Source: Dissulfurirhabdus thermomarina
Lineage (GTDB): Bacteria > Desulfobacterota > Dissulfuribacteria > Dissulfuribacterales > Dissulfurirhabdaceae
NCBI RefSeq assembly: GCF_012979235.1
Contig: NZ_JAATWC010000004.1
Span: forward strand, 62,001 to 126,000
DNA length: 64,000 nucleotides
Direction: 5' to 3'
Shown here piece after piece: positions 4,439-24,423 of this stretch. The notes under the pieces are model-generated. The model was given only the letters and a program-made list of their open reading frames with translations. It ran no database searches and was not told where the DNA came from. The number at the start of each line of letters is the position of its first letter. Positions within the stretch are counted from its first letter, which is position 1. Both the position numbers and the translations under genes were made by a program.

Positions 4439-4535
4439 GGCCCTTCCTCCCCTCGAGGCTTCCACCCGCCCGGCGGCGCCGCCCCCGGCGCGGCCGGCGG
4501 ATCCAATCCACCCTTCTGTATGATTCTATATCAAA

Positions 4536-6971: not shown

Positions 6972-8525
6972 ATGGACCTGCATCCCGAAACGGACCGGGT
7001 CGCCATCTCGGACCTCATGGCACAGAGCGGGGTCCGGTTCGGGACCAGCGGGGCCCGGGGCCCGGTCCGCCGGATGACCGACCTCGTCTGCTACGCCTAC
7101 ACCCGGGCCTTCCTGGAATACCAGCGCGAGACCGGCGCCCTGCCCCCGGCGGGCGGCGCGGTGGTCCTGGCCGGGGACCTCCGTCCCAGCACCCCGCGCA
7201 TCCTGGCCGCCGCGGCCCAGGCCGCCCGGGACCTCGGCCTCGACATCGTCCACGCCGGCCGCGTCCCCTCCCCGGCCCTCGCCTGGGCCGCCATCCGCCG
7301 GGGCATCCCCGGCGTCATGGTCACGGGGAGCCACATCCCCGAGGACCGAAACGGCATCAAGTTCAACCGCCCGGACGGCGAGATCCTGAAGGCGGACGAG
7401 GCCGCCATCCGCCGCCGGTCCGTCCGCCTCCCGGCCGGCCGCTTCGACGCCGCCGGGGCCTTCCGCCCGCCCCCCGGCCCGCTCCCGCCGGCGGACCCCT
7501 CGCCCCTCGCCGACTACCTCTCCCGCTACCTCGCCTTCTTCCCGCCGGGATGCCTCGCCGGGCTCCGGGTGGGCCTCTACGAGCACTCCTGCGTGGGCCG
7601 GGAGGTCATCGGCGAGGCGCTGGCCGCGCTGGGGGCCGAGGTGATCCGGCTCGGCCGAACGGCGGCCTTCGTCCCGGTGGACACCGAGGCCATCCGGCCG
7701 GAAGACCGGGAACTGGCGCGGCGCTGGGCCCGGGAGGAGGAGCTGGCCGCCCTGGTCTCGGCGGACGGCGACGCGGACCGCCCCCTGATGGCCGACGAGG
7801 CGGGGCGTTGGCTGCGGGGCGACGTGGCGGGCATCCTGGCGGCCCGCTACCTCGAGGCCGACACCGTGGTGACCCCCGTCAGCTCCAACACCGCCCTGGA
7901 GCGATCGGGGCTCTTCCCGGAGGTGCGCCGGACCCGCATCGGCTCGCCCTACGTCATCGAGGGGATGCTGGCCGCCGCCCGGTCGGGCCGGGGCCGCGTG
8001 GTGGGCTACGAGGCCAACGGCGGCTTCCTCACCGCCTCGCCCATCGCCCTGGGCGGCCGGACCCTGGCCCCCCTCCCCACCCGCGACGCCCTCCTGGTGA
8101 TCCTCTGTCTCCTCCACGAGGCGCGGCGGCGGCGGGTCCCCCTCTCGGCGCTGGCGGCGGAGCTGCCGCCCCGGTTCACCGCCAGCGACCGGCTCCGGGA
8201 CTTCCCCCCGGAGCGGAGCCGCGCCGTTCTGGCGGCCCTGGCGCCGGAGGGCACGGCCGAGGCCGCGGCCGAGCGGGCCCTCGGGGACCTCTTCGGCCCC
8301 GTCCGCCGGGTGGACCTCACCGACGGCGTCCGCCTCACCTTCGCCAGCGGGGAGATCGTTCACCTGCGCCCGTCGGGGAACGCCCCGGAGTTCCGGTGCT
8401 ACACCGAGGCGGACACGGAGGAGCGGGCGGCGGAGCTGCTCGGCCTCGCCCTGGGGCGCATGGAGGCCTGGCGCGGCGGGGAGGCGGGCCCTCAGGCGGG
8501 TTCGCCCTCCCCCTCCCGCCCGTAG
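6972..8525 (+). CDS. Phosphomannomutase/phosphoglucomutase
   Basis: Alpha-D-phosphohexomutase that interconverts mannose-6-phosphate and mannose-1-phosphate (or the glucose forms), supplying the adjacent manC. From the ATG at 6972 the protein has 517 residues. Motifs in order: FGTSGARG near the N-terminus, the phosphoserine loop TGSHIP with S120, the metal loop DGDADRP (D265, D267, D269), EANGGF in the sugar-binding region and the phosphate-binding RPSGNAPEFR near the C-terminus. An upstream in-frame ATG exists at 6834 but adds a low-complexity extension. Its 3' end overlaps the convergent manC stop by 34 bases. The mannose preference is inferred from its neighbours. Confidence 0.9.
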   Translation: MDLHPETDRVAISDLMAQSGVRFGTSGARGPVRRMTDLVCYAYTRAFLEYQRETGALPPAGGAVVLAGDLRPSTPRILAAAAQAARDLGLDIVHAGRVPSPALAWAAIRRGIPGVMVTGSHIPEDRNGIKFNRPDGEILKADEAAIRRRSVRLPAGRFDAAGAFRPPPGPLPPADPSPLADYLSRYLAFFPPGCLAGLRVGLYEHSCVGREVIGEALAALGAEVIRLGRTAAFVPVDTEAIRPEDRELARRWAREEELAALVSADGDADRPLMADEAGRWLRGDVAGILAARYLEADTVVTPVSSNTALERSGLFPEVRRTRIGSPYVIEGMLAAARSGRGRVVGYEANGGFLTASPIALGGRTLAPLPTRDALLVILCLLHEARRRRVPLSALAAELPPRFTASDRLRDFPPERSRAVLAALAPEGTAEAAAERALGDLFGPVRRVDLTDGVRLTFASGEIVHLRPSGNAPEFRCYTEADTEERAAELLGLALGRMEAWRGGEAGPQAGSPSPSRP

Positions 8526-9919
8526 GCGTCCTCGAGGCGGACGATGTCGTCCTCGCCGAGGTAGCTCCCGGTCTGGACCTCGATGATCTCGAGGGGGATC
8601 TTGCCGGGGTTCTCCAGGCGGTGGACCGTGCCCAGGGGGATGTAGGTGGACTGGTCCTCGGTGAGGACCAGGACCTCGTCGCCGCGGGTGATCCTGGCGG
8701 TGCCCCGGACCACCACCCAGTGCTCGGCCCGGTGGTGATGGCGCTGGAGGGAGAGCCGGGCCCCGGGCTTCACGGTGATGCGCTTGACCTGGAAGCGGTC
8801 GCCCGCGTCCACTTGCTCGTAGCTCCCCCAGGGGCGGAAGACCCGCCGGTGGGTCTCGGCCTCGCCGCGCCCCTCGGCGCGGAGCCGCGCCACCAGGGCC
8901 TTCACCTCCTGCACCCGGTCGCGGGGCGCCACGAGCACCGCGTCCGCCGTCTCCACCACCACGTGGTCCTCGAGGCCCACCGCCGCCACCAGCCGGTGCT
9001 CGGCCCTGAGGAGGCACCCCCGGACGTCCTCGGCCACGACGTCGCCCTCGAAGACGTTGCCCCGGCGGTCGGCACCGCCGGCCGCCCAGAGGGCCGACCA
9101 GGAGCCGAGGTCGCTCCAGCGGGCGGGCAGCGGCACCACCACGGCGTCGCCGGTGCGCTCCATCACGGCGTAGTCGATGGAATCGGAGGGGCAGGCCCCG
9201 AAGGCCTCCGGATCGAGCCGCAGGAAGTCGAGGTCCACCCGGGCCCGGGCGTGGGCCTCGCGGCAGGCGGCGAGGATCTCCGGGGCGAAGCGCTCGAGTT
9301 CCTCGAGGTAGCGCCGGGCGCGGAAGAGGAAGATCCCGCTGTTCCAGAGGCAGCCGGCGGCCACGTAGGCCTCGGCGGCCTCCCGGTCGGGCTTCTCCAC
9401 GAACTCGGCCACCGGGACCGGTCCCGGCCCCTCGCCCCCGGGGCGGATGTAGCCGTAGCCCGTCTCGGGCCCGGCGGGAGTGACGCCGAAGGTGACCAGC
9501 GCCCCCGCCTCGGCGGCGGGGCGCCCGGCGGCCACGGCCCCGGCGAAGGCGGCCCGGTCTTCCAGCAGGTGGTCCGCCGGCGACACCAGGAGCAGGGCGT
9601 CGTCCCCCTCGGCCCGGAGCACCTCCAGGGCCGCGCAGGCCGCCGCCGGGGCCGTGTTCCGGCCCGCGGGCTCGAGGATGAGGGTGGCGTCCTCGACCCC
9701 CGCCCCGCGCAGCTCCTCGGCGGCCAGGAAGCGGTGCCGGTGGTGGCAGACCAGGACCGGCGCCCCCCGCCCCGGCAGCGCCGCCATCCGTTCCACCGTG
9801 TCGCGGAGGAGGCTCGGCCCCGCGCCGAGCCGCAGGAACTGCTTGGGGTGCGCCGCCCGGGAGAGCGGCCAGAGCCGCGTCCCGGACCCCCCGGAGAGGA
9901 TCACCGGTACGAGCTTCAC
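8492..9919 (-). CDS. manC: Mannose-1-phosphate guanylyltransferase / mannose-6-phosphate isomerase
   Basis: Bifunctional 475-residue enzyme making GDP-mannose. The N-terminal nucleotidyltransferase begins VKLVPVILSGGSGTRLWPLSR and shows HPKQFL and VEKPD. The C-terminal cupin (type II isomerase) contains RPWGSYE, VKPGARLSLQRHHHRAEHWVVV and ENPGKIPLEIIEVQTG. The start is GTG at 9919, immediately before the first beta strand. It is the last of three genes read in the order gmd-fcl-manC on the minus strand, which together with the phosphomannomutase give GDP-mannose and GDP-L-fucose. Confidence 0.95.
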   Translation of the reverse strand: MKLVPVILSGGSGTRLWPLSRAAHPKQFLRLGAGPSLLRDTVERMAALPGRGAPVLVCHHRHRFLAAEELRGAGVEDATLILEPAGRNTAPAAACAALEVLRAEGDDALLLVSPADHLLEDRAAFAGAVAAGRPAAEAGALVTFGVTPAGPETGYGYIRPGGEGPGPVPVAEFVEKPDREAAEAYVAAGCLWNSGIFLFRARRYLEELERFAPEILAACREAHARARVDLDFLRLDPEAFGACPSDSIDYAVMERTGDAVVVPLPARWSDLGSWSALWAAGGADRRGNVFEGDVVAEDVRGCLLRAEHRLVAAVGLEDHVVVETADAVLVAPRDRVQEVKALVARLRAEGRGEAETHRRVFRPWGSYEQVDAGDRFQVKRITVKPGARLSLQRHHHRAEHWVVVRGTARITRGDEVLVLTEDQSTYIPLGTVHRLENPGKIPLEIIEVQTGSYLGEDDIVRLEDAYGREGEGEPA

Positions 9920-9932
9920 GCCGCGCCCCCCC

Positions 9933-10874
9933 TCACCGGCGGATCTCCGCCAGGTGCTCCAGGAACCACCGGTAGGTGTCCCGGAGCCCTTCTTCCAGGG
10001 GGATCCGCGCCGACCAGCCCAGGGCACCGAGCCGCGAGACATCGAGGAGCTTGCGGGGCGTCCCGTCGGGGCGGGAGGTGTCGAACTCGATCCGCCCCGG
10101 GTACCCCACCACCTTCCGCACCAGTTCGGCCGCCTCGCGGATGGTGACGTCCGACCCCACCCCGACGTTGACGATCTCCTCCCCGTCGTAGCGTTCCATG
10201 AGGAAGAGGGCCGCGTCGGCCAGGTCGTCCACGTGGAGGAACTCGCGCCGGGGCGTCCCCGAGCCCCAGACGGTGACCGACGGGGCGCCGGCCTCCTTGG
10301 CCTCGTGGAACCGGCGGATCAGGGCGGGCAGCACGTGGCCGTCCTCCAGGCTGAAGTTGTCCCCCGGGCCGTAGAGGTTGGTGGGCATGAGGGAGATGGC
10401 GCGGAAGCCGTACTGGCGCCGGTAGGCCTGGCACATCTTGATGCCCGCGATCTTGGCCACCGCGTACCACTGGTTGGTGGGCTCCAGGGGGCCGGCGAGG
10501 AGGCAGTCCTCCCGCATGGGTTGGGGGGCGAGGCGCGGGTAGATGCAGGAGGAACCCAGGAAGAGGAGCTTTTCCACGCCGGCCCGCCACGCCGCGTCGA
10601 TGACGTTCACCTCGATGAGGAGGTTGTCGCGGATGAAGTCGGCGGGATAGGTGTCGTTGGCGTGGATGCCGCCCACCCGCGCGGCGGCGAGAAAGACGTA
10701 GCGGGGCCGCTCGCGGTCGAAGAAGGCCCGCACCGCCGCCTGGTCGGTGAGGTCCAGCTCGGCGTGGGTCCGGAGCAGGAGGTTCCGGAACCCGGCGGCC
10801 TCGAGGCGGCGGCGGATGGCCGCCCCCACGAGACCCCGGTGGCCGGCGACGTAGATGCGGGCGTCCCTTTCCAT
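9933..10874 (-). CDS. fcl: GDP-L-fucose synthase
   Basis: Short-chain dehydrogenase/reductase family epimerase-reductase that converts GDP-4-keto-6-deoxymannose to GDP-L-fucose with NADPH. The 313-residue protein starts with the Rossmann motif [12 protein letters not shown] and carries [25 protein letters not shown], the catalytic YxxxK in [11 protein letters not shown], and NLYGPGDNF. It lies between gmd and manC on the minus strand, with 13 bases to manC. This context fits a fucose-containing surface polymer. Confidence 0.95.
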
Positions 10875-10911: not shown

Positions 10912-12042
10912 TCACTCGTTGTAGTCGAAGGTCCGGAAGCCCCGCCGCCGGCACAGCGCGTCGCGCCGGGCGTCGTGGAGGTCGGCGGCCACCATCTCGC
11001 GGACGAGCTCGTCGAAGGTCACCTCCGGCACCCAGCCCAGCCGCTCCCGGGCCTTGGTGGGGTCGCCGAGCAGGGTCTCCACCTCGGTGGGGCGGAAGTA
11101 GCGGGGATCGACCCGCACCACCACGTCGCCCGCCCGGGGCCCCCGGCCCTCGGCCCCCTCCACCGGGGCCGTCACCGCGTCCACCACCCCCGTCTCGTCG
11201 AGCCCCTCGCCCTCCCAGCGGAGGCGGATGCCCAGCTCGGCGAAGGCCCGCTCGCAGAACTCCCGCACCGAGTGCTGCTCGCCCGTGGCGATGACGTAGT
11301 CCTCGGGCTCGTCCTGCTGGAGCATGAGCCACTGCATGCGCACGTAGTCGCGGGCGTGGCCCCAGTCGCGCCGGGCGTCGAGGTTGCCCAGGTAGAGGCA
11401 GTCCTGGAGGCCCAGGGCGATCCGGGTGGCGGCCCGGGTGATCTTGCGGGTCACGAAGGTCTCGCCGCGGACGGGGGACTCGTGGTTGAAGAGGATGCCG
11501 TTACAGGCGTAGATCCCGTAGGCCTCCCGGTAGTTCACGCAGATCCAGAAGGAGTAGAGCTTGGCCACCGCGTAGGGGGAGCGGGGATAGAAGGGGGTCC
11601 GCTCGGTCTGCGGCGTCTCCCGGACCTTGCCGAAGAGCTCCGAGGTGGAGGCCTGGTAGAACCGGGTCCGCTTCTCGAGGCCGAGGATGCGGATGGCCTC
11701 CAGAAGGCGGAGCGTTCCCAGGGCGTCGGCGTTGGCCGTGTACTCCGGGGTCTCGAAGGAGACCTGGACGTGGCTCTGGGCCGCCAGGTTGTAGAGCTCG
11801 TCGGGCTGCACCTCCTGGATGATGCGGATCAAGTTGGTGGCGTCGGTGAGGTCGCCGTAGTGGAGGATGAAGCGCCGGTCGGGCTCGTGGGGGTCCTGGT
11901 AGAGGTGGTCGATGCGGTCGGTGTTGAAGAGGGAGGCCCGGCGCTTGATGCCGTGGACCTCGTAGCCCTTCCCGAGCAGGAACTCGGCCAGGTACGCCCC
12001 GTCCTGCCCGGTGATGCCGGTGATCAAGGCCTTCTTGGTCAC
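10912..12042 (-). CDS. gmd: GDP-mannose 4,6-dehydratase
   Basis: NADP-dependent dehydratase that removes water from GDP-mannose, giving the substrate of Fcl. From GTG 12042 the protein is 376 residues, starting [23 protein letters not shown]. It has [15 protein letters not shown], the active-site [15 protein letters not shown] (YxxxK), and [10 protein letters not shown]. The start follows a strong GGGGAGGAGGACACC sequence. Immediately upstream is an insertion-sequence remnant whose open frame runs into this ribosome site. The normal promoter or upstream partner of gmd may therefore have been replaced. Confidence 0.95.
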
Positions 12043-12087: not shown

Positions 12088-12851
12088 GGCTCCCGGTCCG
12101 CCCCAGGATAGCCGGGTTCGCGCCCGGCGTCCACCGCCGGCCGGGGCCGAAGCCGCAGGAGTTCCGCCTCGAGGCGGCCGAGCACGGCCTCGCGGTCGAG
12201 CCGGTCCACGGCGTAGGCGCGGGCCGCGGCCCCCAGGGCGTCTTCTTCCTCGACCTCCCGGGCCGCCGTCTCCAGCTCCGCCTTGGCCCGGCGGATCCAC
12301 TCCAGGCGCCGCTCGGCCGTCGGCAGCTCCTCGGGAAACTCGTCTTCCCGGCGGCCCCCGTAACACGGGTCCTCGGCCCGGTCCGTCTCGTCGGCCTTGG
12401 CCAAAAGCGCTGTCACCTCCTTCCGAAGCGCTTTCGCCTCCATCCGAAGCTTCTTGTACCGGCGATTCCGACAAAGTGCCGCCCTGGCCCGGACCTTCGT
12501 TTCGTCCAGGACAATCACCCCGGGCCAGGCCCGCCCGCCGGCACAGCGGAAGTCCGGCAGGTTGCCGGCGGACAGCCACCGGAAGGCCACGTCGTTCACC
12601 AGCGCCGCCTCGATCTTCCGGCTCGAGGTGATCCCAACGCAGTAGGCATAAAGCAGGACCTTGACCCTCATCGCCGGATGATAGGCCGCCCGTCCCTGGC
12701 CGTTGGCCCGGTAGTAGCCGTAGATCTCCCGGAGGTCCATCACCTCCACCGTCTCGGAGATGAACCTGGCTAAGTGTCCCTCCGGGAGCCAGTCATCAAT
12801 GGAGGGCGTAAGCAGAAAATTCGGGTGGTACGGAAGGAAGTTGTAGGACAT
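12088..12851 (-). pseudogene. IS1182-like transposase remnant joined to a glycosyltransferase tail
   Basis: The first ~100 residues are the typical N-terminus of IS1182-type DDE transposases ([61 protein letters not shown]). About 25-30 residues expected next are missing before [13 protein letters not shown], and the C-terminal catalytic part is absent. After residue ~204 the frame continues as [20 protein letters not shown], which looks like the C-terminal helix of a GT4 glycosyltransferase (about 12146-12245). The open frame then runs on to 12039 into the gmd start. It cannot transpose. It marks the left border of the AT-rich island. Confidence 0.75.
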
Positions 12852-12958
12852 GCCCCTCTACCCTGAACGTCATCAGGCCGGAATTATTGAAAATATACTA
12901 TCCTGGCCTCCGGCGCCACCCGCGTGGCCCGAAAAATCAAAATGTCTGCTGGACAGGT

Positions 12959-13738
12959 TCAATCCACGTTTTTGGAGTTCGCGAGTTCATGTAGAAGTAT
13001 TTTTACAAATTGCAAATCATCAAAAAGGTATCTCTTACTAAGTCTGCGAGGCTCTAGCATTAAACGGAAAAACCATTCTAGACCTAAGCGACGCATCAAG
13101 AGAGGGGCACGCCTTTTTAGACCTGTATAAAATTCAAATGCTGCCCCCAGCAACAGAAAAACGGGAACATATTTCCTTCTTTCCATCAATTTCAAAAAAA
13201 TTAATTTCCCCAACCTTTCTTGTTTTGGGAATCCAAGGCCTATAAAGACGTATTTAGGCATCTCTCGCTCTATTACACCACTATATTTATTAGCAAGATT
13301 GCCAATCATCACTCTATCATCAGCATCGAAAAAAGGAGCAGCCTCCCAAATAATATTATCATATTCAGACATTAGCTTAAGACCAATTTTGTTTCTTGAA
13401 ACGACAAAAAAACACCTCTCATTTTTAGCCTTTATTCTCTTGAATAAAACGCCAAAAAGGTCACTTCCAGTCAATCGTCCCGCCAATGGTTTACCAAGCA
13501 GCCGACTAACGACAATAACAGGAGCCCCATCAGGCAATATTAAAAATGACTTATCATAAAATGACCTCAATTCAAAATAATGATTAAATTTGACAATCTG
13601 ATCAACATTAGGTGTAATAACAAAAGGAATCTTATTGTCATCTAGATCGAATATTTCGAAATTAATGATATATTCAGCTACGTGCTCGACACATTCACAA
13701 GTCACAAAATCAAATCCAAACAGTTTGTTACGCTCCAT
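12959..13738 (-). CDS. WecG/TagA/CpsF-family glycosyltransferase
   Basis: GT26-family enzyme; known members add N-acetylmannosamine(uronic acid) or related sugars to lipid-linked intermediates. Visible motifs: VITPNVDQIVKFN, LILPDGAPVI, RLTGSDLF, YVFIGLGFPKQE and the arginine-rich tail (LMRRLGLEWFFRLMLEPRR) thought to hold the protein at the membrane. The ATG at 13738 is chosen because GGAGG lies six bases upstream; an ATG at 13744 abuts that site directly. This gives 259 residues and an 11-base overlap with the upstream GT4 gene. The coding sequence is AT-rich, unlike the flanking chromosome, which suggests acquisition. The substrate is unknown. Confidence 0.88.
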   Translation of the reverse strand: MERNKLFGFDFVTCECVEHVAEYIINFEIFDLDDNKIPFVITPNVDQIVKFNHYFELRSFYDKSFLILPDGAPVIVVSRLLGKPLAGRLTGSDLFGVLFKRIKAKNERCFFVVSRNKIGLKLMSEYDNIIWEAAPFFDADDRVMIGNLANKYSGVIEREMPKYVFIGLGFPKQERLGKLIFLKLMERRKYVPVFLLLGAAFEFYTGLKRRAPLLMRRLGLEWFFRLMLEPRRLSKRYLFDDLQFVKILLHELANSKNVD

Positions 13739-14951
13739 ATTCATCCTCCAAAATATCATAGAAAGCTTCTGTAGAATACATATCCATAATTCTATCAAAA
13801 CATGTGTAATTCATAGCCCCACACATCATGCGTTCTGCATCATTAATAATCAGCGACACAATATGCTGCGCAAATTCCTGAGGAGTTGCTCCGACCCTCA
13901 CTCCCGCCGTATCTGGTATGCCTTCAGCTCCGACCGGAGTTGTCACAACCGGGAGCCCTCGCATCATTGCATCAAGGATTTTAATTTTTATACCACTTCC
14001 TGACAAAAGCGGAGCCACAAAAACATCTGCATTTTCATAATAACTATCTATTTCGTCAATATAGTCAAAAACTTGAATAAAATCTCCATCTCCATATTTC
14101 TTGATGCTATGAGGTGTTCCCTTCCCTATATGTATAAATCTAACATTTTTTATTTTCGCCCTAACTAGCGGCAAAACATGTCGCAGAAAGTATTTTAAAC
14201 CAACAATATTAGGAGGCCAATGGCCAGTACCAATATGTAAAATAGTATTAGTACGCCTCAGCAAAGAAACTCTATGCCTTTTATGAAGTAAGCGTGACGG
14301 GAAAAAAAACTGAAATCGGCTGCTCTTTGGACAAAGCTTTCTAGCAATATTGTAATCATTAGAAGAAATAAATATTACTTTATTAGCAAAGCCCCAAAAT
14401 TTTTTCTCCCACAATTGTATCAAAAAAAGCTCTCCAATAAGGAAAAACTTACCTAACTTTAGCATATTGTTAGCATAACGGCGCACAAGAACGCTTTCAA
14501 TATTGTGTGACTGAATCAATATCTTGGCACCCTGTTGTTCTACAAATATACGTTTTAAAAATTTATTCAAAAAAACACGAGCACCGAAAATCTCATCTAT
14601 AAATACAATATCATATTTATACCTTGAAGATAACATGTATATTCTCCGAATATAATCAATGTATGAATCTCTAAAAAAATAATAAGATTTGCAAAAAATA
14701 TTATAAAACGGAAAGAGAAAAGATGGCAATCTCCGAATCCGCGCCAATTCAATATGGCAAACATTAGCGAGGCCTAATATCTCCTTGTCTTTAGCACTTA
14801 TTTTTTGAGCACATAAATCATCTTTAAAAGCAACAACATCACAAATATATTTCTCACTTAACAACTGTAATGTTGACAGAGAAACTTTTTTCCCCCCACT
14901 TATTGCAGGAACAGGAAAGTTTCTACACAAAAACAAGACTCTTTTGGCCAT
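13728..14951 (-). CDS. GT4-type glycosyltransferase
   Basis: A 407-residue GT-B-fold glycosyltransferase. The N-terminus has a first strand with a glycine loop (RVLFLCRNFPVPAISGGKK). The C-terminal half shows HIGTGHWPPNIVGLKYFL, DYIDEIDSYYENADVFVAPL and GSGIKIKILDAMMRGLPVVTT, the nucleotide-sugar binding E(x7)E-like region with a conserved PVG loop. It likely adds one sugar of the polysaccharide repeat at the inner membrane. It overlaps the polymerase gene before it and the WecG-type gene after it, so the three are translationally coupled. It is AT-rich. Donor and acceptor cannot be deduced. Confidence 0.88.
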   Translation of the reverse strand: MAKRVLFLCRNFPVPAISGGKKVSLSTLQLLSEKYICDVVAFKDDLCAQKISAKDKEILGLANVCHIELARIRRLPSFLFPFYNIFCKSYYFFRDSYIDYIRRIYMLSSRYKYDIVFIDEIFGARVFLNKFLKRIFVEQQGAKILIQSHNIESVLVRRYANNMLKLGKFFLIGELFLIQLWEKKFWGFANKVIFISSNDYNIARKLCPKSSRFQFFFPSRLLHKRHRVSLLRRTNTILHIGTGHWPPNIVGLKYFLRHVLPLVRAKIKNVRFIHIGKGTPHSIKKYGDGDFIQVFDYIDEIDSYYENADVFVAPLLSGSGIKIKILDAMMRGLPVVTTPVGAEGIPDTAGVRVGATPQEFAQHIVSLIINDAERMMCGAMNYTCFDRIMDMYSTEAFYDILEDEYGA

Positions 14952-16218
14952 ACCATCTCCTCCAAATAATATGTTTTGTGTAAACTAAGCCAAGCAAGAA
15001 AAAGATATAACCACTTCCAATATAAGATATTGATGATTCGCTAAGACTTGCAACAACACACGTCGAAAAAGCTACGGCTAGTACAATTGAATGGAGCTTC
15101 CGCTGCTCAGATATAGAAAGATAATACAAATGAGATAACAACCAGAGATAAATTATAAATCCAACAATTCCAATCTGCCCAACAAAAGCTCCCAGATAAC
15201 TCTCCCCTATTCCAATTTCAGTTTCTGGAGAAAATAGTTTGGCAAAGTTCCCAGATCGTCCCAGACCACAACCCAACGGGAACTTAAACATCAGCAAAAA
15301 ATTGTATAACAAACCTGCCACATGGTTCCTGACAGATTGGCTATGTTCCATAAAGAAAAATACAATTACCACAAACAAAAAAAACGAACATAGGATAAAA
15401 ATAAATCGGAAAAATAGACTTTTGTTGCTTAAGGCAAATATGCCAAGAGAAATAAAGACAACAACCAACCCCCCCTTACTAAATGTCAACAAAAGAGCTA
15501 CAAAACACAGAACAAAGATAATCCAGTTGCGTGTCAAAAAAGATAAAACAACAACATAGGACAGAAAATGACCCGACAATGTAGGCTCAACAAGAAGTGT
15601 CACATTTCTCCGTAATGGCCTGCCAACCCATTCCACAAAATCATATGTATAGAAATTCCCGGGAAGACCTCCAGGCCCATATGCCCATTGTCCCATTCTT
15701 TTCTGCATCATGTAACTATTTATTCCGAATTTTTGCCAAAAGGTATCTCCTAAAAATATCATCTCAAAAAATCCAAATAGCACAACAAGAAGCGAGATGG
15801 CTAAAACTACCTTGTTCAAACTCCACAATTCGACTTTGCCCATTAGTCGGCCAACGAAGAAAAAAGACGGAACTATAAGAAGTTGCCTTGCTGAAATAAT
15901 TTTCGAAGTCAAATTTGAAGCATCAGGGTAAAAAATATAGACGCATATTACAAGAATCCATAAAATCATGCATATATCTAAATAACCAAAGATATTATTG
16001 ATCCTGGAAAACATGAATGTGAACAAAAACGAAACAGCAAACAACATTAATAAAAAAATAATAAGAAAATCTTTTATAAAAATAATAGGAACGATACTAA
16101 TAAATGGAGACAAAATAACTGACACAATATTTTGAAAAGCAAGCAACAAAAATAAGACTATTATGAGAAAATTTCTAAGCATTATTAAGCCCAAGTTTCT
16201 TGTATCTAAATATTCCAT
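14923..16218 (-). CDS. O-antigen/polysaccharide polymerase or ligase-like membrane protein
   Basis: A 431-residue integral membrane protein with roughly ten hydrophobic segments and a larger periplasmic loop in the second half (GAFVGQIGIVGFIIYLWLL follows it). The pattern, with GLGRSGNFAKLFSPE before GIGESYLGAF, resembles the Wzy/WaaL O-antigen ligase-polymerase superfamily, which diverges strongly in sequence. In a cluster with flippase, Wzz and an export channel, Wzy-type polymerisation is the most likely role. The annotated ATG lacks a clear ribosome site; an internal ATG starting MLRNFLIIV would be 12 codons later. Polymerase versus ligase is not decided by sequence. Confidence 0.78.
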   Translation of the reverse strand: MEYLDTRNLGLIMLRNFLIIVLFLLLAFQNIVSVILSPFISIVPIIFIKDFLIIFLLMLFAVSFLFTFMFSRINNIFGYLDICMILWILVICVYIFYPDASNLTSKIISARQLLIVPSFFFVGRLMGKVELWSLNKVVLAISLLVVLFGFFEMIFLGDTFWQKFGINSYMMQKRMGQWAYGPGGLPGNFYTYDFVEWVGRPLRRNVTLLVEPTLSGHFLSYVVVLSFLTRNWIIFVLCFVALLLTFSKGGLVVVFISLGIFALSNKSLFFRFIFILCSFFLFVVIVFFFMEHSQSVRNHVAGLLYNFLLMFKFPLGCGLGRSGNFAKLFSPETEIGIGESYLGAFVGQIGIVGFIIYLWLLSHLYYLSISEQRKLHSIVLAVAFSTCVVASLSESSISYIGSGYIFFLLGLVYTKHIIWRRWYGQKSLVFV

Positions 16219-16237
16219 GTGGCGATTCTAGAATTTT

Positions 16238-17134
16238 TTAAAATATAACTCTGCTTAATATATGTAGTGACTCTTCATATAAACCAATACTTTTCGCTAT
16301 AGATAAAAATCTTTGCTCTTCATCAAATGTCATAAAACTATTTCTATTAGCTGGACGCAACTTTCCTGCATAGTCAAAATGTACACCGAAACTTTCAAAA
16401 ACAGATTTACTTTTCCCTGGATTACGCACGATCTCCTCATAGCACAATACATTTCCGCCCACTTTTTGAATTTTCTTCAGTGCGACAAAATTTGAAACGA
16501 TCCAGACTCCAAAAAATCGATTCATTGCCTTAAATCGCCACAAAATTCTATCTAAGATCCCCAAATCATAAGGCGAACAGCCATACCTCATTTCTATATA
16601 TTTATACATTTCATCAATGTAAAAAAAACGCCCCCTAATGAAAGGCCCAAGTCCAATGCGCAGTATTTTCTTCAGAAACGAGCCAAACCTAAAACTACTT
16701 CTTATAATAGATCTATATACATCAAAAGGATTTCGAACTATATGGACGACCCCGCAACCATAGGATGCTGCTATTTTGTCAAGAAAAAAATGCCATCTAT
16801 TGCTTTGCAGAATAATTGGCGTGTCTGAATCGTGAAACAATTTGACATATGAAAGTAATTCATCACAGGAAGTAGGGAAAACAATTCCAACGTTCGGGTG
16901 ATGCCAGCGAAGAGCGTCAAGAAAGTCCATATCTAATAAATATTCATCAAACAATACCGTTTCATGGAGAGGATCAGCTTCCCTATTGAGCCAATAATCA
17001 CGTACCAACAAAAATAAGCGCTCGTGACATGGCTCATAGTATACTCTATAATAAGGGTTGCTTTCTTTTAATATTCTCCATACAATTGTTGTGCCACTCC
17101 TAAAGAAACCATTTACAAGAAGTCGAAGAGGCAT
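16238..17134 (-). CDS. Sulfotransferase family protein
   Basis: A 298-residue protein with the two nucleotide-binding elements of PAPS-dependent sulfotransferases: the 5'-phosphosulfate loop near residues 8-22 (VNGFFRSGTTIVWRIL) and the 3'-phosphate site VVHIVRNPFDVYRSIIRSS (R...S). It likely transfers sulfate to a sugar hydroxyl. Its place between the polymerase and methyltransferase genes suggests a sulfated surface polymer, or modification of a lipid-linked intermediate. It is AT-rich like its neighbours. PAPS synthesis genes are not in the window. The acceptor is unknown. Confidence 0.83.
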   Translation of the reverse strand: MPLRLLVNGFFRSGTTIVWRILKESNPYYRVYYEPCHERLFLLVRDYWLNREADPLHETVLFDEYLLDMDFLDALRWHHPNVGIVFPTSCDELLSYVKLFHDSDTPIILQSNRWHFFLDKIAASYGCGVVHIVRNPFDVYRSIIRSSFRFGSFLKKILRIGLGPFIRGRFFYIDEMYKYIEMRYGCSPYDLGILDRILWRFKAMNRFFGVWIVSNFVALKKIQKVGGNVLCYEEIVRNPGKSKSVFESFGVHFDYAGKLRPANRNSFMTFDEEQRFLSIAKSIGLYEESLHILSRVIF

Positions 17135-17394
17135 CTATTCTCTCCTTAGGAATCGAACGCAGAAACATTCCAAAATCGGACTCCAAAGTAATATTAGTCG
17201 CCCATAGTCTTGGCTTCAAGACCTTTGAACGTGCCCGCCTTGCACTGACACCCACTTGCTCTTGTAATCTGGACTACACTTGTTTTGTGCCGAACAATAG
17301 GCTCAAAGATTGTCCATAATTTTTGCACTAATATCGACCCATCTAAACAGGGCCATTCCGCGCAACAGTCCATTTAATGGAGCATATTTATAGA

Positions 17395-18117
17395 TTAACC
17401 TTGTTTTATAAGATAAAGCTTTCTTCCAAGAGCGCCATGACGATTTAAGTCTGCCAAAACTGAAAACTCTCTATTCTCACTTAAAAAGTGATTAGTACCC
17501 TTGGTAACACCTGGCCATTGACTATTATAGTAATCATCCACGGCAATAATACCATTCTCGATAATATGTTTGCTGCAAAGATTAAGATCAAAATACACCT
17601 GATCCATAGAATGACCGCCATCTATATGGGCAAAGCGAAATATTTCTCTGCCAAGTTTCAATTTATTACTTAAACACTTATGAATAATGATACGCTCATT
17701 CTCGACATTAGGGTTCAATCGTTTAATATTAGAAACTAGCCTTTCAGGAGAAGGCTTATCCGAATACTTGTCATCCGTATCGATCTCAAAGGCGTCACAT
17801 ATAACAATCTTCTCATCTGGCTGAAGACATTTTGCCATTAATGCTGTGGACCGTCCATGATAGCTGCCTATCTCTAGCAAATCTCCTTTTAGCCCTATTG
17901 CTGACTGATACGATAATATTAGAAAAAAGTGAGCGCAGTCGTCAATGTTAAACCAACCAGGAATGTCTTTTATTTTATCGAATACGCACCTAATTAATGG
18001 CCCTGCCTCTCCAATATAAGCATATTTTGTTGATTCTCTAAGGTAAGCTGAATGCTGATGGCTCTTAAGTTTTCTTTTTAATGGCTCTGGAATGATTTTT
18101 TTCAGAATGTGTAGCAC
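17395..18117 (-). CDS. Class I SAM-dependent methyltransferase (Methyltransf_24 type)
   Basis: A 240-residue protein with the SAM motif I region GDLLEIGSYHGRSTALMAKCL, an acidic motif II (IVICDAF), and AHIDGGHSMDQVYFDLNLCS followed by GIIAVDDYYN, typical of methyltransferases found in polysaccharide and antibiotic clusters. The start is GTG at 18117 with GGAGG eight bases upstream. It is the first gene of the AT-rich island in transcription order. Between it and the sulfotransferase, 17135-17394 is an AT-rich spacer with no supported gene. The substrate is unknown; a sugar or lipid-linked glycan is inferred. Confidence 0.83.
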   Translation of the reverse strand: MLHILKKIIPEPLKRKLKSHQHSAYLRESTKYAYIGEAGPLIRCVFDKIKDIPGWFNIDDCAHFFLILSYQSAIGLKGDLLEIGSYHGRSTALMAKCLQPDEKIVICDAFEIDTDDKYSDKPSPERLVSNIKRLNPNVENERIIIHKCLSNKLKLGREIFRFAHIDGGHSMDQVYFDLNLCSKHIIENGIIAVDDYYNSQWPGVTKGTNHFLSENREFSVLADLNRHGALGRKLYLIKQG

Positions 18118-18149
18118 TTAAGTATCCTCCACGCAATCCAACTAGTTCT

Positions 18150-18300
18150 TCTGACTTGCGTGCTTAAGAGCCTGTCCTCAAACTTCAGAGGATACGCCGC
18201 ACGACAAGAGTATCCGAAGCACTGCGGCGATCGGCTATTTTTTTGTGACGCCATCAAGCCTGGACCGTCCACCATCATCCAGGCGACACCGGCCGAGCAA
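18150..18300 (-). repeat. Dispersed repeat copy at the right border of the AT-rich island
   Basis: On the minus strand this spacer contains GTGCTTCGGATACTC, then TGCGGCGTATCC, preceded by GATGGCGTCAC and a long A run. These match the repeat near 6.52-6.56 kb (GTGCTTCGGATGCCC, TTGCGGCGTACCC). Base composition changes from AT-rich to GC-rich across it. No gene is supported between 18118 and 18399. Confidence 0.5.
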
Positions 18301-18399: not shown

Positions 18400-19737
18400 T
18401 CACCTCCCCCCTCCCTTCCAAAACACCGTCCACACCCCCAGGTTCCGCCGGATATAGACTACCATGGCGGCGTTCCAGAAGACCATGCACGCCGCGCTGG
18501 CCGCGGCGGCGCCGTTCATCCCGAAGAAGGGGATGAGCACCGCGTTGAGCCCCACGTTCATCACCGTGGCTGCTGCCACGATGTTCCGCGCCGCCACGTG
18601 GTGCCCCGTCATCTGGAGGATGTAGCCCACCGAACCGCAGGAGGCGTTCACGAACTGGGCGAGGGTGAGGATCACCAGGGCCGCGGCCCCGGCCTCGAAC
18701 CCCGCTCCGAAGAGGCCGAGCAGGGGCCCGGGCGCCGCCAGGAAGACCGCGAGCACCGGGGCCGACCACCAGAAGATCATCCGGGTGGACTGCCGGGCCA
18801 CCCGGCCCAGGCCCGCCACGTCGCCCCGGCCCCAGAACTCCGAGAACTTCGGCGCGGCGATGCTGTTCACCGCCACCAGGGCGAGGCTCGTCACCGTGGC
18901 GAGCCGGACCGCCACGTTGTAGATCCCCACCTCGGCCTCCGCCCGGAAGACGCCCAGCATCAGGATGTCGGTCCAGTTCATCACCATGCCCAGCGAGGTG
19001 GTGACCATCATGGGGAAGGAGACCCCCACGAGCTCCCGGATCGGGAGGAAGGGCTCGCGCCGCACCCGGAGGAGGCCGGAGCGGGCCGTCCAGGAGACCA
19101 ACGCCGCGGCCAGGGCCGCGAGCATCCCCTGGACGTAGACCCAGAGGGCGTAGCGCGGGGAGAGGCCGGCCCCGGCGGCGAGGTAGAAGGCCGCCGCCGC
19201 CCACAGGAAGGGAAGCGCCAGCTGGTAGAACCCGTATTCCGCGGTCCGCTTGAGGCCCCGGAGCGACTCGGTGACGAGGTAGAGCGCCACGTAGGGCGGA
19301 AGGGCCCAGGCGGCCAGCTCGAGAAGCGGAGCGAGGCCGGGCTTCCGGAAGACGGCGTCCGCAAGCCACCCGGCGGCGGCGTGGATCACCAAGGCGAGCC
19401 CCGCGGCGGCGGGGAGCCCCAGCCCCAAGGCCTTCAGGAAGACGTCCTTCACCCGCCCCGGCCGCCCGGCCGAGGCCCCGGCCGCCACGAAGCGAAGGAG
19501 CGCGAGATCCAGCCCCAGACGCCCGGCCATCCCCGCCACCTGGAGCACGGTGAAGGCCAGGGCGAAGAGGCCCCACGCCTCGGCCCCCAGCCGGCGGGTC
19601 ACCAGCAGGGTGAACCCGTAGGCGGCGGCCATGCCCAGGACGCGGAGGACGAGAAACACCCCGCTCCCCCGGACCAGCTCGGCCAGGTCCCGGTCGCCGG
19701 CGACCCGCTCCCGCAGGCGGCTCAACCGCCGGATCAC
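18400..19737 (-). CDS. Polysaccharide flippase (Wzx-like, MATE/PST family)
   Basis: A 445-residue protein with about 12 predicted membrane helices, starting LVRGSGVFLVLRVLGMAAAY and containing LLVTRRLGAEAWGLFAL, both typical of PST flippases that move undecaprenyl-linked repeats across the inner membrane. The C-terminal half has FGAGFEAGAAALVIL and IPFFGMNGAAAAS, also common in this family. It is GC-rich, unlike the adjoining AT-rich genes, so it belongs to the resident part of the locus. Its ATG overlaps the stop of the upstream acyltransferase by four bases. Confidence 0.88.
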   Translation of the reverse strand: MIRRLSRLRERVAGDRDLAELVRGSGVFLVLRVLGMAAAYGFTLLVTRRLGAEAWGLFALAFTVLQVAGMAGRLGLDLALLRFVAAGASAGRPGRVKDVFLKALGLGLPAAAGLALVIHAAAGWLADAVFRKPGLAPLLELAAWALPPYVALYLVTESLRGLKRTAEYGFYQLALPFLWAAAAFYLAAGAGLSPRYALWVYVQGMLAALAAALVSWTARSGLLRVRREPFLPIRELVGVSFPMMVTTSLGMVMNWTDILMLGVFRAEAEVGIYNVAVRLATVTSLALVAVNSIAAPKFSEFWGRGDVAGLGRVARQSTRMIFWWSAPVLAVFLAAPGPLLGLFGAGFEAGAAALVILTLAQFVNASCGSVGYILQMTGHHVAARNIVAAATVMNVGLNAVLIPFFGMNGAAAASAACMVFWNAAMVVYIRRNLGVWTVFWKGGGR

Positions 19738-20906
19738 GGCCCGGCGCCCCCGCCATCACCGCTCCCCCTTTCCCCGTGCCGAAACGCACGCTGTTCCACC
19801 TGCCATTCCGGCCACCCCGCCCGGAAAAACGGCCGGCCCGCCGCCGCCCAGGCGGCGCCGCGGGCGAAGAGGGCGTCGGCCGACCGCCGGAGGCGCCGCA
19901 AGAGAGGCCGCTCGACGTGGCGGTGCAGCAGGAGCCCGGCCCCCACGGCGCTCGCCGCGAGGAAAAAGAGCACCAGGGCGGCGCCGGGCTGGGAGCCGAT
20001 CGCCCCGCCCCAGAGCGGGTCCAGGGCCGTGACCAGCTTGAAGGCCAGCCGCTCCACCTGGCCGTGCACCAGATAGATGGCGTAGGAGGCGTCCCCCACC
20101 AGGGAGAGGAGGCGCCGCCGCGCGAAGAAGCCCTCCACCGCCGGGGAGGCGGAGCCCAAGACCAGGAGGAGGCTCCCGGCGCCGAGGCCCAGGATGGAGG
20201 GAAGGTCCCTCGGCCAGGTCGCGACGGACGCCGGCCTCGCAAAGAGGGCGGCCGCCGTGGCCGCGAAGAGGATGCCGCCGGCCGCCAGGCAGGCCGCCCC
20301 CACCCTCCCCCCGGCCGCCGGCCGGAGCCGCCGGAGCCCGAACCAGAGACCGCCGGCCGCGAGACCGAAGAGGAACAATAGGTTGAAGGGATGGAGCAGG
20401 ATGCCGCCCCGCCAGGGGCCGGCCAGGAGCAGGCCGAGCCAGGCCGCCGCCACCGCGGCCCCGAGCCGCCGGTCCAGGACCAGGGCGGAGAAGAGGGCAT
20501 AGAAGAGCACCTCGTAGCGGAGCGTCCAGCTCACCGGGATCACCAGCACGTTCTCCTTCATGAAGAAGAGGGCGTTCAGCCAGAACTCCCGGAGGTCCGG
20601 GCCGTGGACGAGGAACCGCCACCCCCCGGAGGCGAGCAGGATGATCCAGTAGAACGGGTAGATCCGGACCAGGCGCCGCGTCCAGTACCACGGCAGGCGC
20701 CGGGGCCGGCCCACGTCGCCGGCGTGGGCGAAGAGGATGATGAACCCGCTGATCACGAAGAAGAGGTGGACGCCGCAGAAGCCCACGCGGAAGGCCCCCC
20801 AGAGGGGCGCCACCCCGTAGTGGCCGGCCACCCGGAGCGTCCCGTGGAAGAGGACCACCAGGAGGACCGCCAGGGCCCGCCAGGCCTGGATGGTTTCAAG
20901 TTTCAC
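19734..20906 (-). CDS. Acyltransferase 3 family membrane protein (OafA/YrhL-like)
   Basis: A 390-residue multi-span protein of the acyltransferase 3 family, which usually O-acetylates surface sugars. Characteristic positions: ETIQAWRALAVLLVVLFHG with the early Arg and His, FFVISGFIILFAHAG, RRLVRIYPFYW, and SYAIYLVHGQVE near the C-terminus. It sits between wzz and the flippase gene and is coupled to the latter through ATGA. O-acetylation of the polymer encoded here is the natural inference. Confidence 0.9.
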   Translation of the reverse strand: MKLETIQAWRALAVLLVVLFHGTLRVAGHYGVAPLWGAFRVGFCGVHLFFVISGFIILFAHAGDVGRPRRLPWYWTRRLVRIYPFYWIILLASGGWRFLVHGPDLREFWLNALFFMKENVLVIPVSWTLRYEVLFYALFSALVLDRRLGAAVAAAWLGLLLAGPWRGGILLHPFNLLFLFGLAAGGLWFGLRRLRPAAGGRVGAACLAAGGILFAATAAALFARPASVATWPRDLPSILGLGAGSLLLVLGSASPAVEGFFARRRLLSLVGDASYAIYLVHGQVERLAFKLVTALDPLWGGAIGSQPGAALVLFFLAASAVGAGLLLHRHVERPLLRRLRRSADALFARGAAWAAAGRPFFRAGWPEWQVEQRAFRHGERGSGDGGGAGP

Positions 20907-20924: not shown

Positions 20925-21881
20925 TCACGGCCCGGCGCCCCCGTCCTTCTCATCCGCCCGCTCCCGCTGCCGGTCCAGGAACTCCAGGAAGAAGGCCAGG
21001 AAGAGGGCGAGGAGCCCCCCGCCCAGGGTCCCCCCCACCACGATGAGGGCCCGGCGCGGGCGTTCCTTCTCGCGGGGCGGGGCCGCCGGGTCGATGACCC
21101 GGAAGGCGTACTCCTCCCGGACGTTGGCCAGCATGATGGTCTTGATCTGCCCCTCGATGAGCCGGTAGATGGCCTGCTGGAGCTCCACCACGTCGGTCTT
21201 CCTGAGCTCCCGCTCGAGGTAGTCGATGCTGCGGCGCGCCTCGGCCACCGCCCGCTCCCGGAGGCGCGCGTTCACCCGCCGGACCAGCTCGTTGGCCCAC
21301 CGGGCGGCCAGCTCCGGGTCGGTCCACTCCACGGCCAGGGTGACGAGCCCGGTCTTGCGGTCCTCCTCCACGAAGCGGACGTCCTCGTCGAATCGGCGCC
21401 AGGCGTCCCACAGGGTGGGCCGGTCCTCCGGGTCCGCCGCCTTCCAGCGCCGTTTTTCGGTGTCCCACTCGTCGGCGAAGAGGACGGGAAGCAGCTTCTC
21501 CTCCTTGATGAAGGCCTCGGTGAAGGAACGCGAGGTGAGGGTGGCCACCGCCTCCGCCTTGCTGCTCTCCGTGCCCCCGATGTCCACCCCGGCCATGGCG
21601 GCCAGCCCCCCGAACCGGGAGGCCAGGCTCGAAAGGCGCGCATCCTGGTCCTGGTCCGTCACCGGGGCCAGGAGCACCTCGGCCCGGTAGACCGGCGGGA
21701 GAAGAAGGGCCGCCAGGAGGGCCGCCGCGGCGGCCAGGAGCGTCACCCCGGCCAGCAGCCGCCGGCGGCGGCAGAGCACTCCCCAGAGGGCCGCGAGATC
21801 CACCTCCTCCTCTTCCAGGGCCCCGGAGACCGGGACGAAGTAACCCTGGAGCGCGGGCCGCCGAGGTTCCCGAGGTTCCAC
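20925..21881 (-). CDS. Wzz-type polysaccharide chain-length determinant
   Basis: A 318-residue inner-membrane protein with two transmembrane helices (about residues 43-62 and 285-305) framing a coiled periplasmic domain, as in Wzz/PCP co-polymerases. The second helix is preceded by the proline-rich motif region (VIDPAAPPREKERPRRALIV). There is no C-terminal tyrosine kinase domain. It starts 10 bases downstream of the SLBB gene on the same strand. It would set polymer length together with the polymerase and connect to the export channel. Confidence 0.88.
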   Translation of the reverse strand: MEPREPRRPALQGYFVPVSGALEEEEVDLAALWGVLCRRRRLLAGVTLLAAAAALLAALLLPPVYRAEVLLAPVTDQDQDARLSSLASRFGGLAAMAGVDIGGTESSKAEAVATLTSRSFTEAFIKEEKLLPVLFADEWDTEKRRWKAADPEDRPTLWDAWRRFDEDVRFVEEDRKTGLVTLAVEWTDPELAARWANELVRRVNARLRERAVAEARRSIDYLERELRKTDVVELQQAIYRLIEGQIKTIMLANVREEYAFRVIDPAAPPREKERPRRALIVVGGTLGGGLLALFLAFFLEFLDRQRERADEKDGGAGP

Positions 21882-21891
21882 GTCCCCTCCC

Positions 21892-24423
21892 CTAGAAGGC
21901 GCCCACGGCGTTGGCCGCGGCGGCGGCCAGCGCCAGGCGGTAGATGATCTCCGTCACGTCGCCGAAGAGGGCGAGCGGCCGGATCCGTTCCGCGTCGAGG
22001 GGCACCACGATGGTGTCGCCGGGCTCGATGCGCCGGTCGTAGGTGTGGATGAACCAGAGCGTGGTGCTGCTGCCGAGGACCGAGCCGTCGGCCCGCACCA
22101 CGTACACCCGACCCGGGTCGGCCTTCTGGGTGAAGCCGCCGCTCTTCTGGATGTAGTCGTTCCGGGAGAGCGCCGGGTCGTAGAGGTGCGAGGTGGGGTA
22201 GAAGACCTCCCCGATGACGCTCACCTCCTGCGGCCGCCGCGGCACGAGGAGCCGGTCCCCGTTCTCGAGGACCACGTCCTTGTCCGCCCGGCCGGCGAGG
22301 ATCCCCGGCAGGTCGATCACCATGCGCCCCGTGGCGTTGGTGCTCTCGAGCTCCTCGGCCAGGGAGCGGGCGAGATCCAGGGCCTGGGCCTTCTTGGGGT
22401 CTTCCTGGACCTGGCGAAGCGAGATGGAAGACAGGTCCGCCCGGAGCCGCCGGGCCATCCGGTCCATCTGCTCCTGCTCCTTGGCCCGGAGAGAGGCCCG
22501 GAGGAAGACCGCCCCCCGCGGGTAGGCGAGGTCGGTGAGCCCGCCGGCCCGGCGGATCACCGACGAGAGGGTCTCGCCCCGGCGGATGGCGTAGCTGCCG
22601 GGAAAGCGCACCTCGCCCCCCACCTCCACCCGCTCCTGCTTCCGCCAGCGGGGGATCTCCTTGACGTTCAGGTAGTCGTGGGGCCGGAGCGCCAGGTCCG
22701 CCGCCGGGTCACCCCGGAGCACGGCGGCGAGATCCACCGGGACGTGCGCCGTCTGCCGGTAGGCGCCCTTGACCACCTCGTACCGGGTCAGCTCCGCCTC
22801 CAGGGCATAGGCGGCCTCCTGGAGATCGCCCCCCGCCCGGATGAGGTCGCTCACCCGCATCCCGGGCTCCAGGGGGTAGCGCCCGGGCGCCCGCACCCGG
22901 CCCCCCACCGCCACCTCCGGAAGCGGCGCCCCGTGCCGGGCCTGGGCGGCGAGCTCTCCTAGCAGCCGGTCCACCACCGGGGCCCGGTCCCCCGCCGAGG
23001 CAAAGACGTAGAGCGTGTCCCGCGGCCGGAGGGGGACGTCCGCCGGGCCGCCCCTCTCGGCGAAGGCCCGGCGAAGATCCACGGAGAAGACCTCGACGAA
23101 CCGCTCCGGCTGCCGCTCCCGCCGGACGAGCACGTAGCCGAGGTCCGCCCGGGGCTTCAGGGCGTAAGCCGAGGGGACGAGGTCCGTGACCCGCATCCCC
23201 TCCTGCCACTGGTACCCCCCGGGCCGCTGGACGTGGCCGGCGAGCCACACCACGTCCTCCATCTCCGCCAGCACGGACGGGACCCGCACCCGGTCGCCGT
23301 CCTGGACCGGCACCGCCCGCCCCGCCTCGGCGGCGAGGTCCACGTCGATCAGGGTCCGCTCGCGCCGATCGCTGATCCGCTCCACCCGGACGGCCGACGG
23401 GTCCGCCGTGGGAAGGAGCCCGCCCGCCAGGGCCACGGCCTCGCCCACGGTCCGCTCGCCCCGGAGCTCGTAGACGGCGGGCCGCTTCACCTCCCCCGCC
23501 ACCCACACCCGGGCCCCCACGGGGGGGACGAAGATGACGTCGCCGGGCTGAAGCCGCGCATCCGAGCTGGTGTCGCCCCGCAGCAGCAGGTCGTAGAGGT
23601 CGATCCGGCCCACCACCTTGCCCTGCCGCTTGAGCTGGATGTCGCGCAGCGAGCCGGTGAGCGCCACCCCGCCACCGACGAAGAGGGCGTTGGTCATGGT
23701 GGAGAGGGCGCTCACCGTGTAGGAGCCCGGCCGGAAGGCCTCGCCCAGGAGGAAGACCCGGATGGACCGGAGCGGCCCCATGGTGACCCCCGCCTTGACG
23801 CCGATCATCTGGCGGGCGATCCGGTCCCGGACGAGGCGGCGCAGCTCCTCGAACCGGAGCCCCGCCACCGGGACCGGCCCGATGCCCGGCAGGTGCAGCA
23901 GCCCCTCCCGGGTCACCACCAGGGTGTAGTCCGCGTTCTCCTTGCCGAAGAGCTGGACCTGGACCGTGTCGCCCGGCCCCACCACGTAGTCGGCGGGCAC
24001 GGGGATGTCCGTGGCCGGGGCGAAGGTGCTGGGGACCCCGGCGAAGAGGTCGTAGCCGAAGTAGCGGAGCCCCCCCGGGCCCCGCCCGGCGGTGGCGTTC
24101 GCGGCGCCGGTGGCGTTGTCCCCTTCCTCGCGCAGCCAGGGGGGCAGCACGGGGCCGGGCGCGGGGGCCGGGGGGACCCGGCGCGGGGTCACCAGCTCCG
24201 GCTCGGCCAGCGGGGCCTCGGCACCGCCGGCCCCCTCCCGCCGCTTGAGCTCCTCGAGGAGGGCCGCCCGCTGGTCCGGGGTGAGGCCCCGGAGGAGTTC
24301 GAGGCCGGCGGCACCCGGCGTCGCGCCCCCGGCCGCCCGGGCCGGTCCCGCCGGCACGAAGGCGCCCGCGGCCAGCACCGCCGCCGCCAGCACCGCCGCC
24401 ATGAGCCACCGCCTCGGTCGCAT
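21892..24423 (-). CDS. Polysaccharide export protein with multiple SLBB repeats
   Basis: An 843-residue periplasmic/outer-membrane export component. There is a signal peptide (residues 1-30, ending ARAAGG) without a lipobox cysteine. A Wza-type export domain follows (DYVVGPGDTVQVQLFGKENA). About six beta-grasp SLBB units come next, each with a G-V/E-x-R-P-G-x-Y core: LGEAFRPGSY, AGEVKRPAVY, AGHVQRPGGY, GGRVRAPGRY, GGEVRFPGSY and IGEVFYPTSH. The C-terminus is hydrophobic and alanine-rich. It is longer than classical Wza (~380 residues), with an expanded repeat stack. The ATG at 24423 is preceded by GGAGAAGGAGGAGGG. Confidence 0.92.
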   Translation of the reverse strand: MRPRRWLMAAVLAAAVLAAGAFVPAGPARAAGGATPGAAGLELLRGLTPDQRAALLEELKRREGAGGAEAPLAEPELVTPRRVPPAPAPGPVLPPWLREEGDNATGAANATAGRGPGGLRYFGYDLFAGVPSTFAPATDIPVPADYVVGPGDTVQVQLFGKENADYTLVVTREGLLHLPGIGPVPVAGLRFEELRRLVRDRIARQMIGVKAGVTMGPLRSIRVFLLGEAFRPGSYTVSALSTMTNALFVGGGVALTGSLRDIQLKRQGKVVGRIDLYDLLLRGDTSSDARLQPGDVIFVPPVGARVWVAGEVKRPAVYELRGERTVGEAVALAGGLLPTADPSAVRVERISDRRERTLIDVDLAAEAGRAVPVQDGDRVRVPSVLAEMEDVVWLAGHVQRPGGYQWQEGMRVTDLVPSAYALKPRADLGYVLVRRERQPERFVEVFSVDLRRAFAERGGPADVPLRPRDTLYVFASAGDRAPVVDRLLGELAAQARHGAPLPEVAVGGRVRAPGRYPLEPGMRVSDLIRAGGDLQEAAYALEAELTRYEVVKGAYRQTAHVPVDLAAVLRGDPAADLALRPHDYLNVKEIPRWRKQERVEVGGEVRFPGSYAIRRGETLSSVIRRAGGLTDLAYPRGAVFLRASLRAKEQEQMDRMARRLRADLSSISLRQVQEDPKKAQALDLARSLAEELESTNATGRMVIDLPGILAGRADKDVVLENGDRLLVPRRPQEVSVIGEVFYPTSHLYDPALSRNDYIQKSGGFTQKADPGRVYVVRADGSVLGSSTTLWFIHTYDRRIEPGDTIVVPLDAERIRPLALFGDVTEIIYRLALAAAAANAVGAF

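Follow-up and report, generated by a model that had tools for sequence, protein, structure and literature searches.

The glycosyltransferase, wzx and wzy genes of Salmonella O-antigen clusters contain 28–37% GC in a genome of 51–52% and lie between nucleotide-sugar genes (PMC3715488). The galactose-initiated O-antigen (rfb) clusters carry manC, manB and wbaP at one end, and their low GC has been explained by horizontal gain (PMC3715488). Horizontal transfer was also credited for sulfotransferase and glycosyltransferase genes with atypical GC content in the locus for the sulfated capsule of Vibrio sp. KMM 8419 (PMC11641403). The published genome paper of Dissulfurirhabdus thermomarina describes two genomic islands, the first made up of carbohydrate genes, mostly for mannose (PMC7463578).

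Here we analyzed a 64,000-nt stretch of this genome (the window; positions 62001–126000 of the 234,957 bases of contig 4, in a genome of 2,461,349 bases and 34 contigs), which contains a short AT-rich block in a surface polysaccharide locus. D. thermomarina SH388T is a thermophilic, anaerobic, deep-branching and sulfur-disproportionating bacterium from a sea vent, with GC-rich DNA. The block region may be included in the first of the published islands (PMC7463578). We conclude, with a probability of roughly 85%, that the block lies at the center of a Wzx/Wzy surface polysaccharide locus as the cassette that determines its specificity, and that it was horizontally acquired from an AT-rich donor and has not been ameliorated.

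Composition of the block

The DNA at 12959–18117 contained 36.0% GC, which placed it at −16.7 SD from windows of the same size in the same genome (62 windows from eleven sampled stretches; 71.0 ± 2.1% GC, minimum 66.1%). Its dinucleotide distance was 180.8, compared to a background maximum of 103.7. Along the window, the GC content remained at 66–77% until ~12.9 kb, was 33–39% at 13,001–18,000, and then returned to 61% and to more than 72%; the compositional edges of the block were refined to ~12,950 and ~18,150. The third-position GC (GC3) was 0.29–0.34 in the five genes of the block versus ~0.95 (0.94–0.98) in most flanking genes, and the low values were not attributable to amino-acid content. 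The windowed GC and codon-usage calculation thus bore out the original prediction of five strikingly AT-rich genes with AT-ending codons between GC-rich nucleotide-sugar and flippase genes, and none of the 62 windows from the rest of the genome showed a similar composition.

Runs of at least 18 A/T bases were present at ~10 places genome-wide, one of them inside the block. Further low-GC patches were located at positions 1–10000 of contig 4 and at 153–155 kb and 30–31 kb of contigs 2 and 6, respectively; those examined at 1-kb resolution went down to ~41–49% GC only. The patch on contig 4 (sampled stretch L044) is a 10-kb end-of-contig island of 41–55% GC with IS1182-like and IS30-like transposases, a CAAX-protease-like gene and unknown genes. 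A second sulfotransferase gene, unrelated to the one described below, was found at 153511–154590 of contig 2 (positions 9512–10591 of sampled stretch L042) in an AT-rich patch of 33–49% GC, beside a beta-ketoacyl synthase gene, and is possibly another acquired sulfation gene.

A contrast this extreme across 5 kb would also be expected if foreign DNA had been joined to the contig through an error in assembly or binning. We regard such an artefact as extremely improbable, because the sequence comes from an isolate genome with ~1384× coverage (PMC7463578), and because the block lies inside a 235-kb contig with functionally coherent one-strand genes on both sides.

Gene content of the block

The five genes are all encoded on the minus strand, in the transcription order methyltransferase, sulfotransferase, Wzy-like polymerase, GT4 glycosyltransferase and WecG-type glycosyltransferase. 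Three of them were identified by Pfam. The first gene of the block (17395–18117; GC3 0.32) encodes a class I SAM methyltransferase (Methyltransf_24, PF13578, E = 3e-14). The last gene (12959–13798; GC3 0.32), with a true start likely at ~13740, encodes a glycosyltransferase of the WecG/TagA/CpsF family (PF03808, E = 2e-33), for which the best match in the phylum was 34% identical. The glycosyltransferase encoded at 13728–14951 (GC3 0.29) matched PF13692; its score of 89 bits against the XrtA-system family TIGR03087 fell short of the equivalog cut-off of 317, and it was classed only as GT4. A GT4 alignment proved too divergent to serve as a search query and was dropped.

The protein encoded at 14923–16218 (GC3 0.34) has many hydrophobic segments and no match in Pfam. 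A relative, 27% identical over 264 aa, belongs to a plasmid exopolysaccharide cluster, where its gene adjoins sugar transferase and polysaccharide tyrosine kinase genes, and the position of the protein in the block corresponds to that of a weak Wzy_C protein in two Acidobacteriota loci, L112 and L113. Its membrane character, its context and the plasmid relative point to a putative Wzy-like polymerase. A single-sequence structure model of this protein (pLDDT 49.5) was discarded.

The remaining gene (16238–17134; GC3 0.31) encodes a PAPS-type sulfotransferase, as judged by motifs, relatives and the predicted fold. Its translation contains the 5′-phosphosulfate motif FRSGTT and the 3′-phosphate motif HIVRNPFDVYRS / RNPFDVYRS, the core positions of which were invariant or nearly so among 17 homologs. 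The protein itself missed the Pfam Sulfotransfer_3 family (16.4 bits versus a cut-off of 27); its relative in L113 passed both this family (PF13469, 27.7 bits) and PF00685, and another relative, in locus L114, scored 45.7 bits. A sequence search against solved structures returned no relative of the sulfotransferase. A Foldseek comparison of its structure model (mean pLDDT 70) with the PDB gave sulfotransferases as the top matches (E = 1e-4, probability 1.0), with a TM score of only ~0.41.

The reading frames of the polymerase and GT4 genes overlap, as do those of the GT4 and WecG-type genes, suggestive of a single operon. Between the methyltransferase and sulfotransferase genes lies a 260-bp gap (17135–17394) with 43% GC and no intact frame, which may represent a gene that has decayed or a former junction.

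The resident export frame

The flanks hold the other parts of a Wzx/Wzy locus in genes that also lie on the minus strand. To the left of the block are genes for GDP-mannose 4,6-dehydratase (gmd, 10912–12036; TIGR01472, 601 bits), GDP-L-fucose synthase (fcl, 9933–10874; NF047922, above the cut-off) and the mannose-1-P guanylyltransferase/mannose-6-P isomerase ManC (8492–10042; PF00483 and PF01050), followed by a phosphomannomutase gene and by the initiating sugar-phosphate transferase of WbaP/PssY type (3050–4465; PF02397 and PF13727). To the right are the Wzx flippase (18400–19737; PF01943 and PF13440; 72% GC, GC3 0.96), an acyltransferase-3 for O-acylation (19734–20906; PF01757), the chain-length regulator Wzz (20925–21881; PF02706), a Wza-like outer-membrane export protein with Poly_export and SLBB domains (21892–24300, start approximate; PF02563 and PF10531) and the capsule assembly protein Wzi (26605–28266; PF14052, E = 8e-81). 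Two methyltransferase genes are also present upstream of the block, in the export set with the SLBB protein and Wzi. Of the components that define a Wzx/Wzy locus, a flippase, Wzz, an outer-membrane export protein, an initiating transferase and further glycosyltransferases were found, along with the putative polymerase of the block.

Among the flanking genes scanned, there was no glycosyltransferase besides the initiating transferase and no other polymerase, so that the block, which supplies both non-initiating glycosyltransferases and the polymerase of the locus, provides the core of a Wzx/Wzy pathway that is standard in its other parts. This statement is confined to the locus under study, since the genome encodes another Wzy_C protein elsewhere and has, at ~265–275 kb of contig 1, a second polysaccharide locus. 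The second locus has its own GC dip to 56%. The single strong match to APS kinase in the genome was at 259443–259886 of contig 1, and PAPS can therefore be made; this gene and that of the only other Wzy_C protein lie side by side at 259443–260682. Within the polysaccharide locus, at 5730–6485 of the window and directly downstream of a copy of the dispersed repeat described below, lies a gene for a LuxR-type regulator that contains an autoinducer-binding domain, and quorum control of the locus is possible.

A genome of the same order (G003) encodes homologs of the SLBB protein, Wzz and Wzx (28–33% identity) that keep their relative order, and the genes between them differ; this supports an export frame that is conserved around a variable middle. 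The five cassette genes were absent from all of the order-level loci examined. The GC-rich flanks, with their initiating transferase, nucleotide-sugar and export genes, and the recurrence of the SLBB-Wzz-Wzx order in the relative support the proposed resident frame.

Borders of the block

On the left, the block is bordered by a remnant of an IS1182-family transposase gene (12124–12851, minus strand; DUF772), the sole copy in the genome. It scored 111 bits against the NCBIfam IS1182 model (cut-off 270 bits) in two separate stretches, with the N-terminal part retained, an internal deletion, and the C-terminal half missing. On the right, the 5′ half of a dispersed hairpin repeat (18190–18272, minus strand) breaks off, on the side facing the cassette, close to the apex of the hairpin. 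The full repeat of ~137 bp (consensus TGATGGCGTCGCAAAAA...TTTTTGCTGAGCCATC) folds as one long hairpin (z = −3.65), is MITE- or REP-like, and recurs at least 21 times as a near-full copy in D. thermomarina; of the 41 Dissulfuribacterales genomes searched, 14 contain it, that of D. thermomarina included. Besides the border copy, the window contains copies at 6479–6719, 26263–26355 and 38850–38992; others were observed in L054, L042, L056 and elsewhere. The Rfam search gave no match in the window, the repeat included, at gathering scores.

Insertion of the block into one copy of the repeat was considered and found unsupported, as the search for the second half at the left border gave no match above background. 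Because the repeat is dispersed genome-wide, a copy near the edge is weak evidence of anything, mobility included. Apart from the IS1182 remnant, no tRNA, integrase or convincing direct repeats bounded the block. An integrase, a tRNA site and direct repeats are typical for genomic islands but are not required. The IS remnant and the repeat predicted at the borders are therefore both real and in place, but they mark the two ends less firmly than had been implied, the former being truncated and the latter genome-wide.

Homologs and origin

Close relatives of the five proteins were scarce in the phylum, which was surveyed in 297 genomes including that of D. thermomarina. The polymerase had no match in any of the 296 other genomes and the sulfotransferase had one, weak and distant, in a single genome; homologs of the GT4, methyltransferase and WecG-type proteins were only distant, mostly 25–36% identical. 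This scarcity bears on the view that the genes are native and held AT-rich by selection, low GC being common for wzy and wzx. The Salmonella O-antigen processing genes are indeed low in GC, which was called unexplained (PMC3715488), and the polysaccharide locus of G003 also has 32–44% GC over much of its length. However, the flippase of the same D. thermomarina locus is GC-rich, the methyltransferase and glycosyltransferase genes are AT-rich to the same degree as the polymerase gene, and almost no close relatives exist in the phylum, all of which makes a native origin very unlikely.

Among ~85,000 species genomes, sulfotransferase relatives were found in 20 loci, the best of them in two Acidobacteriota MAGs (JAADJC010000030 and JAADGL010000033, carrying L112 and L113). 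In both loci a GT4 gene lies two genes beyond the sulfotransferase gene, with the gene for the weak Wzy_C protein between them; in the remaining 18 loci, the GT4 match was weak or absent. These two loci also hold the best GT4 match found anywhere, at 202 bits and 32% identity along 389 aa, compared to at most 124 bits elsewhere. The order sulfotransferase, polymerase-like gene and GT4, shared by the block and the two MAG loci, suggests that the three genes travel together; a BLAST comparison of the cassette polymerase with the polymerase-like protein from Acidobacteriota showed no similarity. In L112 and L113, three or four sulfotransferase-like genes surround a single polymerase gene and a single GT4 gene, and both loci are probably clusters for heavily sulfated polysaccharides. 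We tentatively propose that the sulfotransferase, Wzy-like polymerase and GT4 genes make up a mobile module of conserved order that passes between the distant phyla Thermodesulfobacteriota and Acidobacteriota and would install a sulfated repeat unit in unrelated export loci.

The WecG-type and methyltransferase genes fall outside this three-gene module, which raises the possibility that, rather than being swapped as one cassette, the five genes entered a locus that never had glycosyltransferases of its own or had lost them, perhaps step by step and with more than one donor involved. The absence of these two genes from the Acidobacteriota loci and the gap of intermediate GC that sets the methyltransferase gene apart are consistent with such additions, but the low GC and GC3 common to all five genes, their single strand and the tight packing of four of them argue for a single cassette. 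We consider piecemeal addition a genuine possibility, albeit one that we lean against, and retain acquisition as one cassette as the preferred reading.

The search for donor lineages located a best joint match in Acidobacteriota, but the nearest homologs were only ~25–35% identical, too low for a donor to be named. A plasmid origin was rejected, with the sulfotransferase unmatched in plasmids and the plasmid matches of the other proteins ~22–34% identical; a search of viral contigs found nothing. The predicted horizontal acquisition is nevertheless well supported by composition, by codon third positions, by the scarcity of close relatives among the phylum genomes and by a best joint match that lies in another phylum. 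The evidence for the composition and the horizontal origin of the block is solid, and, judging from its sequence, the block likely forms the core of a Wzx/Wzy locus for a sulfated polysaccharide.

Discussion

In the proposed working of the locus, the initiating transferase (3050–4465) would load the first sugar onto undecaprenyl phosphate, and the GT4 and WecG-type enzymes of the cassette would extend the repeat unit with sugars that are probably mannose or fucose, supplied by ManC, Gmd and Fcl. The cassette sulfotransferase would add sulfate from PAPS, and the methyltransferase and the resident acyltransferase may decorate the unit further. The resident Wzx would then flip the repeat unit, the cassette Wzy-like protein would polymerize it under the resident Wzz, and Wza and Wzi would export and anchor the polymer. 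We infer the transfer from a donor, the sugar identities, the sulfation and the replacement of an earlier resident cassette; both the swap and the serotype role in the original prediction are putative.

The 35-point GC contrast within one operon-like locus makes this a very clean case of a putative exchange of the specificity core of a surface polysaccharide. Known examples of such exchange come mainly from Enterobacteriaceae and marine Gammaproteobacteria; the present one is from a deep-branching anaerobic thermophile. The organism with this predicted sulfated polysaccharide makes its living from the production and consumption of sulfur species; if the module reading is true, the three genes moved into a thermophile that disproportionates sulfur and produces its own sulfate. 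Our understanding of the evolution of such loci in general is not altered by this finding.

Among the described systems, the Salmonella rfb clusters share with D. thermomarina a central glycosyltransferase/wzy block far below the genome GC (PMC3715488). Unlike in Salmonella, the D. thermomarina flippase is GC-rich and resident, the cassette includes a sulfotransferase, and the GC contrast with the genome is ~35 points compared to ~15–23. The Vibrio sp. KMM 8419 locus resembles that of D. thermomarina in its sulfotransferase and glycosyltransferase genes of deviant GC and in the presence of PAPS synthesis genes (PMC11641403). However, the Vibrio capsule relies on an ABC transporter and lacks wzy, in contrast to the Wzx/Wzy type of D. 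thermomarina, and its PAPS genes lie inside the locus, whereas the APS kinase of D. thermomarina is encoded elsewhere (at 259 kb of contig 1). The Acidobacteriota loci L112 and L113 have the sulfotransferase, polymerase-like and GT4 genes in identical order; they differ in identities of only 27% and 32%, a polymerase without detectable sequence similarity, extra sulfotransferases, no WecG-type or methyltransferase gene, and a GC content of 48%. The phenomenon is thus well known, and the D. thermomarina block is an unusually clean case of it, with the sulfotransferase as its most distinctive part.
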